IMG/VR virus record: IMGVR_UViG_3300011440_000046
Location: 1-32,513 of that record
Length of the DNA: 32,513 nucleotides
Reading direction: 5' to 3' (one strand)
Source of the DNA: a virus
Each line of letters starts with the position of its first letter. The stretch's first letter is position 1. A program made the translations under genes and the position numbers. Of the stretch, positions 7,317 through 30,865 are shown piece after piece. The notes beneath the pieces are model-generated. The model did not search any database, had not been told where the DNA came from, and saw nothing but the letters and a program-made list of their open reading frames with translations.

Positions 7317-7968
7317 ACCTTAGAGTAGTATTGCTGTGTCATATTCTGCCAACAATCTTTGTCTGTTTCAGAATTAGTGAATATAAAACTCTGGACACAG
7401 GCACCTAATGGGGCTGGCTAAAGATTCTGAGATTGTGGTTGGTGCTGTGGTGGGGGGTGGTGGTGCTTATCGTTTGCCCTTGTGAGGCTCTGTGAGGGCT
7501 GCTGTGGGCTTCTATTATGTTACATGGTATTCAGACTCATCTTGTTAAAGGCTCTTGCCCTGCCTCGTCCTATTGCGTTGCAGGCTGCTTGTATCAGGGT
7601 TTAGTATCAGGCAATGAGAATAGGTGGGAAAACACTGGGTACACGAGGCAATCAATTATGCCAGAGTATAACCCACCATCATGAGGCTCTGAGTTGTGTT
7701 GAGCCTGAGAGAATGCGCCACCATACCAGACACGAGGCACAGAGTTAAATGAATGTGTGGGCCAGCACACATACACAACCCCTCAACACATACACATAAC
7801 ACACATGACGAGTGAGCGCCAGCGAATGAGGCAATGGGCAGGAAGGGCTTGGGCCAATACACATACCTCACAACACTATCGTGTTGCTCGTCCCTCTATA
7901 CGCTGTTGAGGCTCTGAGTGAGGGCTATTGGCATTATGTGCCATTGGCATTATGTGCCATATCAACAC
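7317..7968. other. Long intergenic region with repeated motifs, no convincing gene
   Basis: No reading frame here looks like protein on either strand. The 10-mer TGAGGCTCTG occurs at 7493, 7682 and 7907 (and once more at 3319); at 7493 and 7907 it is followed by TGAGGGCT. A 16-nt unit is tandemly duplicated at 7927-7958. This region lies between the second small-gene operon and the terminator of the zinc-protein gene, so it should contain the operon promoter. It might hold an origin or a regulatory RNA; neither is shown. Confidence 0.5.
7927..7958. repeat. Tandem duplication of a 16-nt unit
   Basis: Two exact copies of ATTGGCATTATGTGCC, each with a short internal GGCA/TGCC dyad, lie just beyond the terminator at 7969-7993. 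They could be paired operator sites. Confidence 0.85.
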
Positions 7969-10906: not shown

Positions 10907-10951
10907 TGTGTCCTCGTATTTGATATAGTGTACCTATCGCAGAAAATCTTT

Positions 10952-10977
10952 AATCTCTTAACATTCTTTAAGAAATT
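10952..10977. promoter_or_regulatory. Dyad in a divergent intergenic region, possible operator
   Basis: AATCTCTTAA and TTAAGAAATT (9 of 10 positions complementary) are separated by CATTCT, in the AT-rich gap between the divergent HTH gene and the plus-strand gene. This is the likely control region of both. No clear -10/-35 pair was identified. Confidence 0.45.
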
Positions 10978-11002
10978 TATTTTCAGCAGCATAGATAATG
11001 CC

Positions 11003-11245
11003 ATGAACGATCATCACTACTTGGCTTTTTTCTCGTCTCAGTCATTCAACAACACAGCACAGTTGGTAGGGCTGGCAGAAAGTATGAGACGCAACCAGAT
11101 AGAAGGCCACAGAATTGGCCAACTCACACTCAATAGAGCCAGACAGGTTCTCAGTGATTTAGAGTTAACCAGACATAACATAGAAAGAGCAAAGAGTGTG
11201 ATATGTGCGATTATAGAGAATCATGAGAATGGCCAGCCCCTATGA
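11003..11245 (+). CDS. Small helical protein, first plus-strand early gene
   Basis: An 80-residue protein starting MNDHHYLAFF; the frame is open further to a GTG at 10928 but that extension is hydrophobic AT-rich leader and overlaps the dyad. Neither start has a strong ribosome site, so the start is uncertain. The rest (about 15-75) is a helical protein with evenly spaced Leu and Arg. No family recognised. It begins the plus-strand early genes. Confidence 0.55.
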   Translation: MNDHHYLAFFSSQSFNNTAQLVGLAESMRRNQIEGHRIGQLTLNRARQVLSDLELTRHNIERAKSVICAIIENHENGQPL

Positions 11246-11300: not shown

Positions 11301-11543
11301 ATGCGAACGAGACAACATATGAGAAACAGTAACGAGTACGAAAGTCATGGGCAACAGTTTGAGTTGATCCTCCATCATGAAGATTGGAATATTGGCGTAA
11401 GTGGAAATGGTGGTAGGTATGAGACACTTTATCACCTCTATTATGAGGGCTACTGTGACATTGTATTGTCAGCCATGCAAATGGACACATTGAAAGAAAC
11501 ACTGGCTGCTGTGGAAACACCAGAGCCAATAGACGAGGATTAA
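11301..11543 (+). CDS. Hypothetical small acidic protein
   Basis: An 80-residue protein with a Tyr/His-rich middle (RYETLYHLYYEGYCDIVLS, about 39-57) and an acidic C-terminus ending DED. The ATG at 11301 lacks a clear site; the one at 11319 has GAG a few bases before, and would shorten it by six residues. No family recognised. It lies between two plus-strand genes in an early block. Confidence 0.6.
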   Translation: MRTRQHMRNSNEYESHGQQFELILHHEDWNIGVSGNGGRYETLYHLYYEGYCDIVLSAMQMDTLKETLAAVETPEPIDED

Positions 11544-11623: not shown

Positions 11624-12361
11624 ATGAGTTGGGATATTTCAGAATACGATGTGTGCTTGAAGTTGTCGCAAGATATGCTGGCCACCAAACCAAATAAAAA
11701 TGTCTATCAGAAATGGTTGATCGACAAGCAGACAAAAGCAATGGCAAAGGAAGGGGCCACAGCAGATGATATAGCAGCAGAGGTGGAGAGGTTAAACAAA
11801 GACTTAGACCACACAATAGATGATAGTGATGGTAGCGCAGCAAAGTTCACAACTTTCAGCCGTGACGAGAATGGCTACTATATCGAATCTTACATGATAA
11901 AGGGCTACCTTAAAAATGCTGGCCAAACTCTCAAACAGTATGGACAACAGAAGCAACTTAAGAGCCTCGTGAGCAAGTATTGTTTTGTTGGGCCAGATAA
12001 AATCTATGTGGCTCCACCAGACTTTAAGGCAGACAAAGTTGAGCGCCCACTAAGAGCGCAAACCCCAATGGGTGAGAGGGTGAGTATTGCTGTGTCAGAC
12101 TCCCTGCCAGCAGGCACAGAAATAAAGTTTAAGGTCAAGTGTCTGGAGGGCAATGTTAAACAAGGGTTGTTAGAAACACTGTTTGATTATGGTGAGTTTC
12201 AAGGCTTGGGCCAGTGGAGAACTTCTGGCGTCTATGGCACATTTACATATACACTCACTGAGGCTGGTGGCAAGTGTAAGGCCAAAAAGGTGAAGGCAGA
12301 GCCAGAGGCAGCAGAGGTTGAACCATTAGCGCCTGTGAGTGGTTACACATTGGGTGGTTAA
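11624..12361 (+). CDS. Conserved phage protein with RAMP/Cas7-like features
   Basis: A 245-residue protein starting MSWDISEYDVCLKLS. A strand opens the protein; MIKGYLKNAGQTL at about 90-102 follows, then KIYVAPPD, ERPLRAQTPMGERVSIAVSDSLPAGTEIKFKV (about 139-170), and near the C-terminus LFDYGEFQGLGQWRTSGVYG (about 187-206). The order 'KG-helix', 'AGT.I.F.V' strand, then a Gly-rich 'GLGQWR..G.YG.F' loop resembles RAMP-fold proteins. I also recall phage proteins of unknown function with the same segments (ERPLRA, AGTEI, DYG, GLGQWRNGGYGRF). No cas genes are nearby. A GAGG site precedes the ATG, as in other early genes. The non-coding array at 12549 begins 190 bases beyond its stop. An RNA or DNA role is only inference. 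Confidence 0.72.
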   Translation: MSWDISEYDVCLKLSQDMLATKPNKNVYQKWLIDKQTKAMAKEGATADDIAAEVERLNKDLDHTIDDSDGSAAKFTTFSRDENGYYIESYMIKGYLKNAGQTLKQYGQQKQLKSLVSKYCFVGPDKIYVAPPDFKADKVERPLRAQTPMGERVSIAVSDSLPAGTEIKFKVKCLEGNVKQGLLETLFDYGEFQGLGQWRTSGVYGTFTYTLTEAGGKCKAKKVKAEPEAAEVEPLAPVSGYTLGG

Positions 12362-12459
12362 TATTGGTAGAGAGGTGTGTGGGGCTGTTTCGCTTCTGTT
12401 GCCCTGCCCCTCTCAGATTATAAGTGCAGCATTTACAAACACTGGTGCTGTAACTGTGG

Positions 12460-12535
12460 TGGGGTGTGGGGGGGCCAGCCGTTTGGCCCTCCCCCCTCGT
12501 TCCACTTGGCCCAAAAGGTGGGGCCACAAGGGGTG
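12460..12535. other. Two GC-rich hairpins between the RAMP-like gene and the array
   Basis: The 187 bases after 12361 have no gene. A GC-rich hairpin (a G-run with GCCA pairing with TGGCCC and a C-run, about 12466-12496) and a second one with TTGGCCC and GGGCCA (about 12506-12530) lie here. Neither has a T-run, so these are not clear intrinsic terminators. Confidence 0.5.
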
Positions 12536-12548
12536 TAAGCCCTCCACC

Positions 12549-14199
12549 GTGTTGTGTTGTGGTTCTGTATAGTAGCGTGAAGTAGAGTATTGGCGTTGTG
12601 TCGCTTAGTAGTGTGAGGGCAATGATTGGTGAGGTGAGGTAAGGTGGCGGCATTGTAGAGTTGTGATATGTCGTGGCGTTGTGTGGATTGTGTTGGCGTA
12701 GCAGAGTGGTGTTTAGTATAGAATTGTTTTGGCGTAGTATTGTGGAGCAGTGTGTGGGTCTAGTAATGTAAAGTGGAGTTGAGGCACTGTTGTCTTTAGT
12801 TGGTTTATGTGGCGGTTAGGTGTAGTGGTGTTGGGGTGAAGATTAGTATTGTGTTGTGAGGGCAAAGGACAGTGTGGCACAGTCTTGTGTTGGCGTTGTA
12901 AGGTGTTGGCATAGTCCCGTTATGTTTAGGCATTGTATCGTCATGCAATGGCATGGCTGAGTTATGTTTTGTTGCGTCAAGGCACTGTATAGTTAGGTTT
13001 TGGCACTGTAGAGTTAAGTGATGTATTGGCATTGTTAGGTTTAGTAATGTCATGGCACAGTGTTGTACGCCAGTGTAATGGCAAGGTTGAGTATAGTCAC
13101 GAGTAGTTGAGGCAATGAGTAGTGTTGGCGTGTAATGGCATTGTGTGGTTATGTCTAGTTAAGGCATGGTGGTGTTTAGTGTTGGACAGCAAAGGCAAAG
13201 TGTCGTTGGGTCTTGGCTTAGCCGTGAATTGTGTTGGCATAGTATTGTGGCGTAAGGTGTAGGCATAGTTGAGTATAGTGGTGCGATGTTGCGGCATTGT
13301 GTAGTACGGTCTAGTGACGGCATAGAGATGTATGGGCATAGTAATGTAGCGTTATGTGACGCAAGGGCCATGTACTGTTTGGTTCTGTATGGGTGTTGTA
13401 ATGCCCTGAATTGTTATGGCACTGTATGGTAAGGCTGTGGTGTTGTATTGAAAGGTTTAGTATTGGCAAAGTTGAGCAGAGTGAAGTAATGTTGAGGCGC
13501 AGTTGTGTATAGTGATGTTACGGCATAGTATGGTGAAGTAATGTTTTGGCAATGTATTGTGAGGTGTTGTTATGGCACTGTTATGTATCGTTACCTGAGG
13601 TTGTGGTTATGTATAGTCGAGTGCCGTAAAGGCAAAGTTTGGTTATGTCAGGTAATGGCTATGTACAGTCCAGTGGTGTAATGGCATAGTATGGTTTTGT
13701 TTTGGCATAGTGTCGTGGTGTTAAGTAGTGTTGTGTTTTGGCAATGCATAGTGTTGTGCTGTTTTGGTATAGTTAACTCATGAATGGTATCGGCATAGTA
13801 ATGTGAGGTTGCGTTGGGGCATAGTAATGTAAGGTGTAGTTGGGGTGTAGTGTTGTATGGCTATGTTTTGGCATAGTTGTGTATGGCCTTGTGTTGCAAG
13901 GGCATAGTTTAGTAATGTAAAGTGATGGCGTTGTTATGTGTTGTTAAGTTTAGGTGTTGTATCGTGAAGTATCGGCGTTGTGTTGTGGGGTGGGGTAATG
14001 GCACTGTAAGGTTAAGTAGAGGCATAGTGGCGTTCTGCACGGTTATGTTTTGGCATAGTGTGGTTATGAGTGGCACAGTGATGGCACAGTCACGAGAAGT
14101 CCAGTGCTGGCAAGGTAAAGTTATGTAATGCACTGTTGAGGCATGGTAACGCAAAGTGAAGTGATGGCAATGTTATGTATCGCAGAGTTATGGCACTGT
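12549..14199. repeat. Degenerate array of GGCNNN-(GTNNN)n units, about 60 copies
   Basis: The plus strand reads as hexamers of form GG(C/T)NNN, most often GGCATA, GGCATT, GGCACT or GGCAAT, each followed by two to six pentamers of form GTNNN (GT or a single-base variant), most often four. Units are therefore 16, 21, 26 or 31 nt, changing only by steps of five; I counted roughly 60 units by eye. C is rare outside the GGC. The period is not a multiple of three and no reading frame is maintained, so the apparent ORFs here are not genes. The array lies between convergent genes, and its right end supplies the stop codon of the gene at 14199-14936. Function unknown. Confidence 0.9.
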
Positions 14200-27983: not shown

Positions 27984-29141
27984 GTTCCAATACACCCATA
28001 AGGTTGTGGGGCTGGTGCTTATGTCTGCTTTAACTGCTGCATACAGAATGTTATCTCTGTAGTCGATATATTCACCAGCCAGTGTGTTGCCAATGTCATC
28101 CTCAAAATGCAATGTGGTAGTGTCACTGAAGCCAGGGATAGTAAGTCTCAGCAGAACAGGAAAGCCACTTATTGTGTGAGGTGCTGTGACTACAAAAGAG
28201 ACTCTGTATTGGTAGCCATTGGCAAAGGTGCTAGAACCACAGAGCAAGCCACCAAAAGGGATTATCGTTTGTGTGCCAGTGTAGAAAGGGTCACCAGCCA
28301 AAAGGGCTGTGCCACCCACAGAGATTGTGCGAACAACAAGCAGCGTACCTGTGCTGTTTGCTGTCACTCCACCTGTTGGGGCTGTGGCGTAAACCGTTTG
28401 TCCTGCTGCGCTACTTCCTGCAACTGCTCCACCACTTCCTGTGGTGTTGTAAGTTACATCTGAGATGGCGGTTGAGTTGAGCAGCGCACCACCTGTGCCT
28501 GTAATTGCTGGCACTGTGTATGCCACGCTTATGCGAACATAATCAAGCCAGCCTTTGTATTGATTGCCGCCTTGCGTGAGATAAACACCAAAACCTGAAT
28601 CGCTAATTTCGGCTGGTGTCCATGTTCTGCCCCATAAATCAGACGATCCGCCAAATGTTACAACAGCAAGTCCGCCATTAAACGGATACCATGTTGCCCC
28701 AGTTGATTTATTTGTTCCGCCTGCAACACCCGCTTTAAGTGTCTGTATTGTTATATCAGCAAGCCATGTATTAGCACCACCTAGAAACTCTTGGAATCTT
28801 TCCATTTCCAAGGTAATGCCGGTTATGGTTGCGTCATCTTGAATATCAAAACCAAAACCAGTCAAAGACAGAGCGCCGCTATTACCTTCGCCAACAGTGA
28901 AATTCTTTGTAGCGTAAGCCCCATCGTCACCTTGTAGATTCTCAGGCGCATCAGTCCAGTCAGTTGAACCATCAATAGTTGGGTAATGCCAGCCTTGTAT
29001 AAATTCATTACCACTACCATTTGCAACCAATCCACCTGTGGCAGTTTCGTTGTAAATACTGCCAAAGAATGATTCAAGTGAACCAGCAATAGGCATGGCG
29101 GCGAGTGGTTTAGAGCCAGGGAGTGCATAGAGTGTTGCCAT
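27981..29141 (-). CDS. Tail adhesin with DUF2341-like C-terminus
   Basis: A 386-residue protein. The N-terminal half (about 50-215) is a beta-rich domain (IQGWHYPTIDGSTDWTDAP ... ITGITLEMERFQEF ... GWLDYVRISVAYTV). Four to five short GG(A/T/L)-containing repeats occupy about 220-310. The last 80 residues (YQYRVSFVVTAPHTISGFPVLLRL ... TTTLHFEDDIGNTLAGEYIDYRD ... LWVYWN) match the DUF2341 pattern. The first half has more CpG than the rest of the window, suggesting a swapped module. TACATA is five bases before ATG and the gene is divergent from the fibre gene at 29177. It is probably a receptor-binding or tail-tip protein. Confidence 0.72.
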   Translation of the reverse strand: MATLYALPGSKPLAAMPIAGSLESFFGSIYNETATGGLVANGSGNEFIQGWHYPTIDGSTDWTDAPENLQGDDGAYATKNFTVGEGNSGALSLTGFGFDIQDDATITGITLEMERFQEFLGGANTWLADITIQTLKAGVAGGTNKSTGATWYPFNGGLAVVTFGGSSDLWGRTWTPAEISDSGFGVYLTQGGNQYKGWLDYVRISVAYTVPAITGTGGALLNSTAISDVTYNTTGSGGAVAGSSAAGQTVYATAPTGGVTANSTGTLLVVRTISVGGTALLAGDPFYTGTQTIIPFGGLLCGSSTFANGYQYRVSFVVTAPHTISGFPVLLRLTIPGFSDTTTLHFEDDIGNTLAGEYIDYRDNILYAAVKADISTSPTTLWVYWN

Positions 29142-29146
29142 CTCAA

Positions 29147-29152
29147 TATGTA
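29147..29152 (-). promoter_or_regulatory. Late-type TACATA element of the DUF2341-like gene
   Basis: TACATA is 5 nt before the minus ATG at 29141. It faces the plus element at 29166-29171 across 13 bases, making a divergent pair. Confidence 0.65.
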
Positions 29153-29165
29153 GCCTTCTCAGGCA

Positions 29166-29171
29166 TACATA
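29166..29171 (+). promoter_or_regulatory. Late-type TACATA element of the tail fibre gene
   Basis: TACATA is 5 nt before the plus ATG at 29177, no ribosome site in range. Divergent with 29147-29152; only 35 bases separate the two start codons. Confidence 0.65.
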
Positions 29172-29176
29172 CTTAC

Positions 29177-30865
29177 ATGGCGCTTATCTTAGTTGACAGA
29201 GTATTAGAATACACCACAACCTCTGGAGGGGCCAATTTATCATTAACAGGGCCACTGGCAGGTTTTCAACCTTTCCAGTCTGGCACTGGCACTGTGGCCA
29301 ATGGTGATATTGTTCCTTACTTTGTGGAAGGCTCTGGCCTGTGGGAAACTGGCTACAGCCTTGTGTCTGGTGCTATGTTGGATCGTGGTTCTATAGTGGC
29401 CTCATGTAGTGGTAACGCTAAAATTGTGTTTCCAAGTAATGTGGCCAAGACTGTTGGGTTGTCGCCACTCGCCAGAGATTACCAAAATGTTGTTGGCTCA
29501 TTAGGCTCTGGGTTTATTCGCATTGCCTCAGGCACCATTGGTACCAACAGCATTGGAAGTGGTGGCATCTTAAGTGGCAACATAGCCGCAGGTCATATTG
29601 GGCGTTTCCATATTGCTAACCTCTCCATTGCAAACAACCATATTGTGGCTGGTGCTGTTGTCTCAGGACATATAGCGAGTGGTAACATTGGGTTAGACCA
29701 TATTGCCAGTGGTGCTGTTAATTCTGGACATATAGCAAGTGGCCAGATTGGCTTGAATCATATTGCCAGTGGTGCTGTTAACTCAGGACATATAGCGAGT
29801 GGTCAGATTGGATTGAATCACATTGCCTCTGGTGCTGTTCGGTCTGGACATATTGCAAGTGGCAGCATTGGGCAAAATCACATAAACCAAGCAGTGGTGT
29901 TGAGTGGCCATATTGCCTCAGGACAAGTGGGAAGTACACACATTGCAAGTGGTGGTGTGTTATCAGGCAACATAGCCAGTGGGCAGGTTGGCCACTTCCA
30001 TGTTTCAAGTGGTGCTATTCAGTCTGGCCAGATTGGAACCACAGGCACACCCAATGGCACCTTGTTTTTGCGAGACGATTTTACATGGGCTGCTGCTGGT
30101 GGTGGCTTAACCTCTGGTGCTGTAACAAGTGGCTATGTTGGAAATAATGCCGTTGTGAGTGGAAGCATTGCAAGTGGGCAGGTTGGCCATTTCCACCTTT
30201 CAAGTGGTGCTGTTACTTCTGGCCAGATTGGTTTAACAGGCACACCTGATGGCACTAAGTTTTTAAGAGACGATTACACATGGGCTGCTGCTGGTGCTGG
30301 CTTAACCTCTGGCAGTGTGTTGAGTGGTCATATTGCATCAGGACAGGTTGGCTTGAATCATATTGCCTCTGGTGCTGTTCGGTCTGGACATATTGCAAGT
30401 GGGCAGATTGATAACTATAAGATTGCCAGTGGTTACACTCCACAATTTACTGGCCCCTTCATCTCTGGTACCAGTTTTACAATCAACACACAAGAGACAA
30501 TCTCAGGGTTGAGGGCTGTTAGTATTTCGGCTAGTGGTAATATACAGATAGCAATGGCTGGCAATACTGCTAGGATGCCATGTGTGGGTGTTGTGTTTGA
30601 TAATATTGCAAGTGGCATCCAAGCCAATGTATATACTTTGGGAGTGTTCCAAGCAGGCGCTTCAGGATTGGTTGATTACTCTGGCTATTTTGGTAAACAA
30701 GTATTTGTAGGTCGCTCTGGACAAATCGTAACAACCTCTGGCAGTTTTAATTCTGGTGGTTTCCTGTCTGGCGATATTTGGCACCCTGTTGGTACTGCTG
30801 TGAATAGTGGAAAGGCTTGTTTCAATATCTCGCAAGCCAACATGTTCACCATGTTATCAGGCTAA
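29177..30865 (+). CDS. Tail fibre with pentapeptide-like repeats
   Basis: A 562-residue protein. The N-terminus (1-110: MALILVDRVLEYTTTSGG ... GLWETGYSLVSG ... LDRGSIVASC) is a common phage tail-attachment head. Residues about 115-420 are repeats with a five-residue period: SGHIA, SGQIG, LNHIA, SGAVN, so that four make a 20-residue unit, encoded by 60-bp near-identical direct repeats. Such repeats fit a pentapeptide-like four-sided beta helix. Two GTP(N/D)GT.FLRDD.TWAAAG segments interrupt them. The last 140 residues are a separate beta-rich domain, probably the receptor-binding tip. I chose ATG 29177 for its TACATA element; the longer start at 29123 overlaps the divergent gene. Confidence 0.82.
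   Translation: MALILVDRVLEYTTTSGGANLSLTGPLAGFQPFQSGTGTVANGDIVPYFVEGSGLWETGYSLVSGAMLDRGSIVASCSGNAKIVFPSNVAKTVGLSPLARDYQNVVGSLGSGFIRIASGTIGTNSIGSGGILSGNIAAGHIGRFHIANLSIANNHIVAGAVVSGHIASGNIGLDHIASGAVNSGHIASGQIGLNHIASGAVNSGHIASGQIGLNHIASGAVRSGHIASGSIGQNHINQAVVLSGHIASGQVGSTHIASGGVLSGNIASGQVGHFHVSSGAIQSGQIGTTGTPNGTLFLRDDFTWAAAGGGLTSGAVTSGYVGNNAVVSGSIASGQVGHFHLSSGAVTSGQIGLTGTPDGTKFLRDDYTWAAAGAGLTSGSVLSGHIASGQVGLNHIASGAVRSGHIASGQIDNYKIASGYTPQFTGPFISGTSFTINTQETISGLRAVSISASGNIQIAMAGNTARMPCVGVVFDNIASGIQANVYTLGVFQAGASGLVDYSGYFGKQVFVGRSGQIVTTSGSFNSGGFLSGDIWHPVGTAVNSGKACFNISQANMFTMLSG

Follow-up and report, generated by a model that had tools for sequence, protein, structure and literature searches.

A probable variant VIPR-type phage locus with a proposed contiguous-triplet guide code, apparently delimited by GGY repeats

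The IMG/VR virus record IMGVR_UViG_3300011440_000046, analysed here as one 32,513-nucleotide stretch (the window), is a 32.5-kb phage sequence with terminase, portal, capsid, protease and tail-fibre genes as well as a primase/helicase side. Between the terminase/capsid/tail gene set and the primase/helicase side lies a repeat array (positions 12549-14199), preceded by a gene, vipr, whose predicted product is a RAMP protein. Together the two very probably form a variant of the VIPR-type RNA-guided silencing loci, in which the guides would be written in an NNN-GY code, read as contiguous triplets and delimited by GGY. A literature search found a single paper on VIPR, a 2026 preprint (PMC13142463; bioRxiv 10.64898/2026.04.26.720920) that presents it as a gapped code predating CRISPR; its main text describes a phage-encoded ancestral RAMP protein together with vrRNAs, the mechanism being shown experimentally. 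According to that text, the vrRNAs hold 9-16 YNNGG repeats, and in each repeat NN pairs with DNA and passes over one target base; VIPR represses genes of rival elements without needing a protospacer-adjacent motif, and SUSP1 VIPR binds double-stranded DNA. Seven VIPR types are described there as sharing 'GGY/NN motifs, or a related consensus', some with 'staggered arrays with overlapping vrRNAs'.

The window array is resolved by a dynamic-programming parse into 318 repeats in one continuous series, 256 NNN-GY pentamers and 62 NNN-GGY hexamers. The pentamer scaffold is G in 97% and T in 84% of cases, the hexamer carries C in 85%, the first regular GY falls at about 12564, one 4-nt irregularity is present, and the blocks abut directly, with no constant tail between them. 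Most blocks comprise 5 units (32 blocks, 26 nt), followed by 6 (14, 31 nt), 4 (10, 21 nt), 3 (3, 16 nt), 7 (2, 36 nt) and 9 units (1, 46 nt). A sequence-only reading of this DNA had described a non-random periodic array of about 60 units of 16, 21, 26 or 31 nt, and the parse bears this out while adding the lengths 36 and 46. Autocorrelation gives sharp peaks at 5, 10, 16, 21, 26, 31, 36, 42, 47 and 52, identity reaching 0.445 at lag 5 (z = 13) and 0.504 at lag 26 (z = 18) where dinucleotide shuffles give 0.294; 157 GT-GT pairs lie at lag 26, with 47 +/- 6 expected, and the 18-letter pattern GGCN3(GTN3)4GGCN3GTN3GT occurs 13 times in the window where none is expected. As that reading had also said, the array is neither coding nor CRISPR, constant repeats with unique spacers being absent, and C is rare at the N positions of pentamers (about 7-11%); the third of these, N3, is G in just 17%. 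The Tandem Repeats Finder check that it proposed returns weak local pieces only. The array has no unusual RNA folding (z = 0.29) and no Rfam family was found for it.

The vipr gene, which lies 187 nt upstream of the array on the same strand, had been missed by the sequence-only reading together with the role of NNN as guide letters, yet it is the key to the proposed function. By profile comparison and predicted fold, its product is a RAMP (Cas7/Csm3-like) protein with one RNA recognition motif (RRM) core and a glycine-rich loop. The AlphaFold2 model (pLDDT 81, pTM 0.67) is matched by Foldseek at E 1e-7 to type VII Cas7 and Csm3, and VIA-align places it on 8yhe_F with Z 13.7 and rmsd 4.7 over 170 residues, its match list being filled with Cas7/Csm3. 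The family profile matches Csm4 (1e-4) and Cas7 (5e-4) and, weakly and through the glycine-rich loop, an entry named 'SUSP1 Vipr protein' 36pp (0.07). Alignment of the family by hhalign to the presumed SUSP1 vipr, KT454805 28474-29061, so assigned from its size and its position between repeat RNAs, gives probability 92 and E 5.6e-7, limited to 57 columns of the C-terminal part. PHROGs, Pfam, PADLOC and NCBIfam give no significant family for the window protein; one relative touches Pfam RAMPs (E 0.008), two Vipr proteins are without a PADLOC match, and no cas gene was found among the window proteins scanned, a scan that covered part of the open reading frames (ORFs). In L008 (2289-2594, +), and also in L037 (5645-5950), the full vipr directly follows another, short Vipr-like ORF of 101 aa (profile E 3e-16), which may have arisen by duplication of the N-terminal part. 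Relatives of vipr with one in-frame stop codon inside the match occur in G029 and G031 (TGA) and in G042 and G043 (TAG), and may reflect a changed genetic code in the phages or broken genes.

The Vipr protein and the array are a pair. A motif search of viral metagenomes, which the sequence-only reading had suggested, was made by scanning the 18-letter pattern over 2.9 million viral contigs and returned 13 stretches. One of these, L008 in a 204-kb phage, has a second array, and the gene immediately before it on its strand encodes a homologue of the window Vipr (BLASTP E 5e-19, 28%). Single-protein scans for relatives of two flanking proteins returned none and a two-sequence Vipr profile alone succeeded, leading to 28 viral loci; a five-sequence profile then gave 22 loci in metagenome-assembled genomes (MAGs) and 76 viral loci, on contigs partly shared with the earlier set. 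Same-strand NNN-GY/GGY arrays stand beside nearly all loci gathered at that stage and, by a local parser, beside none of 25 shuffled loci. Over the collection as a whole, more than 100 loci from viruses and MAGs, almost every relative of the protein has such an array as its neighbour. In the reverse direction, arrays found by the DNA pattern alone carry vipr wherever there is enough flank, except for L014, which was rejected as a low-complexity chance match of the pattern scan; arrays on the minus strand at some loci are likewise only apparent, being the mirror of the plus-strand array. No DNA similarity to the window locus was found among GenBank phages, and the terminase leads to distant relatives of the window phage only. 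One 150,430-base contig bears two identical vipr-plus-array copies in opposite orientation (L083 and L084), and at L035 (5004-5693) and L036 (2802-3761) the array precedes vipr, and more than 90% of its repeats carry GC in place of GT.

In arrays of 40 or more units N1, N2 and N3 are all hypervariable, N3 attaining up to 1.99 bits; since N3 occupies the site of the first scaffold G in SUSP1, the scaffold here is GY and each unit has three guide letters. Sister loci whose Vipr proteins are 93-97% identical share as few as 3-6 four-unit words of about 50-95, while other pairs with equally close Vipr share about half. Where sister arrays can be aligned, substitutions amount to 5.4% at G versus 14% at N (p 2e-6), Y changing as fast as N, and the gaps measure 5, 5, 5, 26 and 41, plus one of 12 and one of 6. 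Guide content thus turns over while scaffold and step persist, the outcome that the sequence-only reading had proposed looking for in related phages. By position, the sisters L022/L023, L041/L042 and L028/L025 differ at 18% of N3, 17% of Y, 13% of N1 and 12% of N2.

How the letters are read was addressed with 139 array segments comprising about 9,300 units. Neighbouring bases of natural DNA show a characteristic association, with TA low and TG, AA and GC high. This signature is present within units (N1-N2 z 10.1, N2-N3 z 7.7) and also between N3 and the first letter of the next unit (N1') across GY, where it appears as a distance-1 signature (z 5.1) even though the two letters stand three positions apart in the array, with nothing comparable at distances 2-6 (|z| at most 1.5). 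Junctions across GGY, for which there are fewer data, do not show it (z 0.6). A within-block comparison of TA and TG was set aside in favour of this distance-resolved test because first-unit bias inflates the effect. Composition changes along the block, the first unit being A-biased (N1 A 60%) and the last A-rich (N1 49%, N2 54%), with a nearly unbiased interior; since order is lost at GGY and the units on either side carry these biases, GGY appears to delimit guides.

Joined NNN letters of single blocks give recognisable translation starts, as in L011 AAAAGTATTAAGGAGGTGAATTTATGT, L062 GGAGGGATTCTGATGAGTAAC and L029 AGGGAGGTGAGTAGATGAACTCC. In the 0-skip reading, 15 blocks from 14 loci contain a Shine-Dalgarno sequence with ATG after it at a natural spacing of 4-9 nt, where shuffles of unit order give 3.2 +/- 1.7; none of 1000 shuffles reaches 15, and the excess ends at a spacing of 9 nt. 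Reversed unit order, two-letter readings, Y-kept readings and the raw array do not rise above shuffles. Over 21 contiguous nt, a 24-nt block of L091, AAAAGGAGGAGATCATGGAAGAAA, agrees with the sequence of L087, a sister phage and close rival, and the match falls precisely on the ribosome site and start of a 63-aa AlpA gene (PF05930, E 4e-12) that lies upstream of L087's own vipr and that L091 lacks at that place; the best of 200 shuffles among sibling contigs reaches 19. These statistics and the L091 match point to triplets that adjoin one another in the target, with a 0-nt skip. A reading by the published rule, in which two of the three letters pair, one target base is skipped and N3 is a relaxed scaffold base (GGY becoming NGY), is unlikely: homology to VIPR, the same 3-bp pitch, a common motif or 'related consensus' given for all seven types in the main text of PMC13142463, and the somewhat faster change of N3 than of N1 and N2 between sisters all speak for it, but N3 varies no less than N1 and N2 and is linked to N2 and N1' as neighbouring genomic bases are, two-letter readings hold no start-site signal, and the L091 match takes in all three letters of seven consecutive units.

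Of the three roles that the sequence-only reading had offered, a G/U-rich unstructured RNA bound periodically comes close to a RAMP-bound repeat RNA with five nt per subunit, whereas the filler and the DNA coating found no support. A protein-coating site (a centromere, packaging or condensation array) with GT at every half helical turn would suit the mean step of about 5.2 bp, but it does not account for the link with a RAMP gene, for order being lost at GGY, for the embedded start sites or for the turnover of N letters, and it is very unlikely.

A block of L061 matches 20 of 21 positions at the start of a SLFN_AlbA_2/HATPase_c_4 regulator adjoining primase genes, its sole mismatch being the A-biased first letter; the genome that holds this regulator was sampled from the family to which another locus-carrying MAG belongs (G060, the genome of L057). 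This match is supportive only, the chance expectation across that search being near one. Several matches of 17-18 nt are of low complexity or unclear meaning, and an rplF match in one genome was rejected, as the two blocks that it spans are not neighbours in the array. Decoded guides had nothing of 20 or more matching bases in the 22 MAGs carrying loci, and a gapped-code search with 30 rules over the first 0.8 Mb of flanks gave no signal.

In the proposed mechanism, the array would be transcribed from the plus strand, probably together with vipr, and one Vipr subunit would hold each 5-nt repeat, gripping GY as scaffold and presenting NNN as guide letters. With GY unrepresented in the target, successive triplets would pair with contiguous DNA (NNN|NNN|NNN), and the target would advance by 3 bp with each subunit, a pitch equal to that of the published NN plus one skipped base. 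A GGY repeat every 4-7 units would delimit the guides, so that, if one block is one guide, the window phage would have about 62 guides, most of them 12-18 nt long. Guides would often copy the ribosome-binding and start region of competing phages' genes in mRNA sense, and pairing would therefore have to be with the DNA template strand, the gene being silenced by guide RNA occupying that strand. Action on RNA, with guides antisense to mRNA, would accord with the closest folds, since the type III and VII RAMP complexes bind target RNA, but 15 start-site guides are in sense and 2 antisense to mRNA, and sense guides are unable to pair with it; the C-poor composition of the arrays may account for some of this bias. 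Given in addition that SUSP1 VIPR is described as binding double-stranded DNA (PMC13142463), an RNA target is very unlikely.

Several observations weigh against a triplet-contiguous VIPR variant. The distance-2 associations expected for N2-N1' and N3-N2' were undetected, the expected effect being weaker, and a G-kept reading of start sites is marginally above shuffles (40 vs 32; 10 of 200 reach it). In a wider target search, 21 matching bases were attained by 1 of 20 shuffles as well. Decoded guides gave no target in two exact scans of viral contigs and a BLAST search of GenBank phages; nor did the window's own guides yield one, neither close relatives nor rivals of its phage having been found. 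The vrRNAs of SUSP1 are described as having a constant structured 3' tail after their 9-16 repeats (PMC13142463), which the window blocks lack. No recognised vap accessory gene stands at the window locus, its two small upstream ORFs matching no family. Support for the clade comes from sequence and predicted structure.

As far as the main text of PMC13142463 describes it, VIPR type II (Escherichia phage SUSP1 and a Pseudomonas fulva prophage) resembles the window clade in having a single phage RAMP protein beside 5-nt repeat arrays, a G-rich conserved motif alternating with hypervariable letters in intergenic DNA beside vipr, an aim at competing elements and, as deduced for the clade, 3 bp of target per repeat. 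The vrRNAs there are tandem pentamers of the same logic, and the sequence-only statement that no element of this form had been described no longer stands. The clade differs from type II in its NNN-GY unit in place of NN-GGY, outside the GGY/NN motif; in three guide letters with a 0 skip favoured by the statistics in place of the 1-nt skip (xNN); in GGY hexamers that delimit blocks; in one continuous 318-repeat array versus separate vrRNAs of about 100 nt; and in a sequence similarity to SUSP1 Vipr confined to the C-terminal part. The staggered arrays of the preprint may equal the window arrangement, which is long and without separate tails, a comparison made with the main-text description only. 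With class 1 CRISPR-Cas (Cas7/Csm3, types III and VII) the locus would share a RAMP fold polymerising on guide RNA and a periodically interrupted pairing, whereas the window array has no constant repeats with unique spacers, no cas operon was recognised among the proteins scanned, the step is 5 nt and not 6 nt, and the interruption would consist of 2 nt of guide that are absent from the target.

The triplet-contiguous code and the GGY-delimited blocks are likely new, though the triplet rule may already stand in the supplement of PMC13142463. If the code holds, a sister form with gapped guide and contiguous target would show that the code itself evolves, would hint at an intermediate form on the way to the contiguous pairing of CRISPR, and would supply a decoding rule making targets predictable for the clade's many virome arrays. 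It also raises the question of how an array acquires guides interleaved with scaffold letters. An interleaved copy is not producible by simple DNA copying, and hence a novel writing process or very strong stepwise selection would have to create the guides. A wider proposal, that the clade stores gene-start sequences of rivals as contiguous DNA interleaved with GY, with dozens of guides per phage that are made in one of these two ways and replaced faster than Vipr diverges, is tentative and on balance doubtful.

Table 1. Features of the vipr locus in the window.
Feature	Position	Strand	Remarks
105-aa ORF	10928..11245	+	Opens the same plus-strand island; true start probably internal; no Pfam family, PHROG matches weak
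80-aa ORF	11301..11543	+	Directly upstream of vipr; no Pfam family; no conserved neighbour cluster found
vipr	11624..12361	+	245 aa; predicted single-RRM RAMP protein with glycine-rich loop (GLGQWRTSGVYG)
Leader	12362..12548	+	Between vipr stop and array; strong G/C hairpins in the RNA fold of 12362-12560
Putative guide (vrRNA-type) array	12549..14199	+	About 62 GGY-delimited blocks

The predicted fold that covers the leader (-88.6 kcal/mol, z -2.65) makes it a possible processing or stabilising element, and the two small ORFs upstream of vipr are possible accessory genes. Elsewhere in the window, 60-bp tandem repeats with an SGHIASGQIG-type motif (29649-29883) lie within the tail-fibre gene (29123-30865), and a perfect 16-bp tandem repeat, ATTGGCATTATGTGCC, is present in two copies at 7927-7960, in a stretch with few long ORFs.
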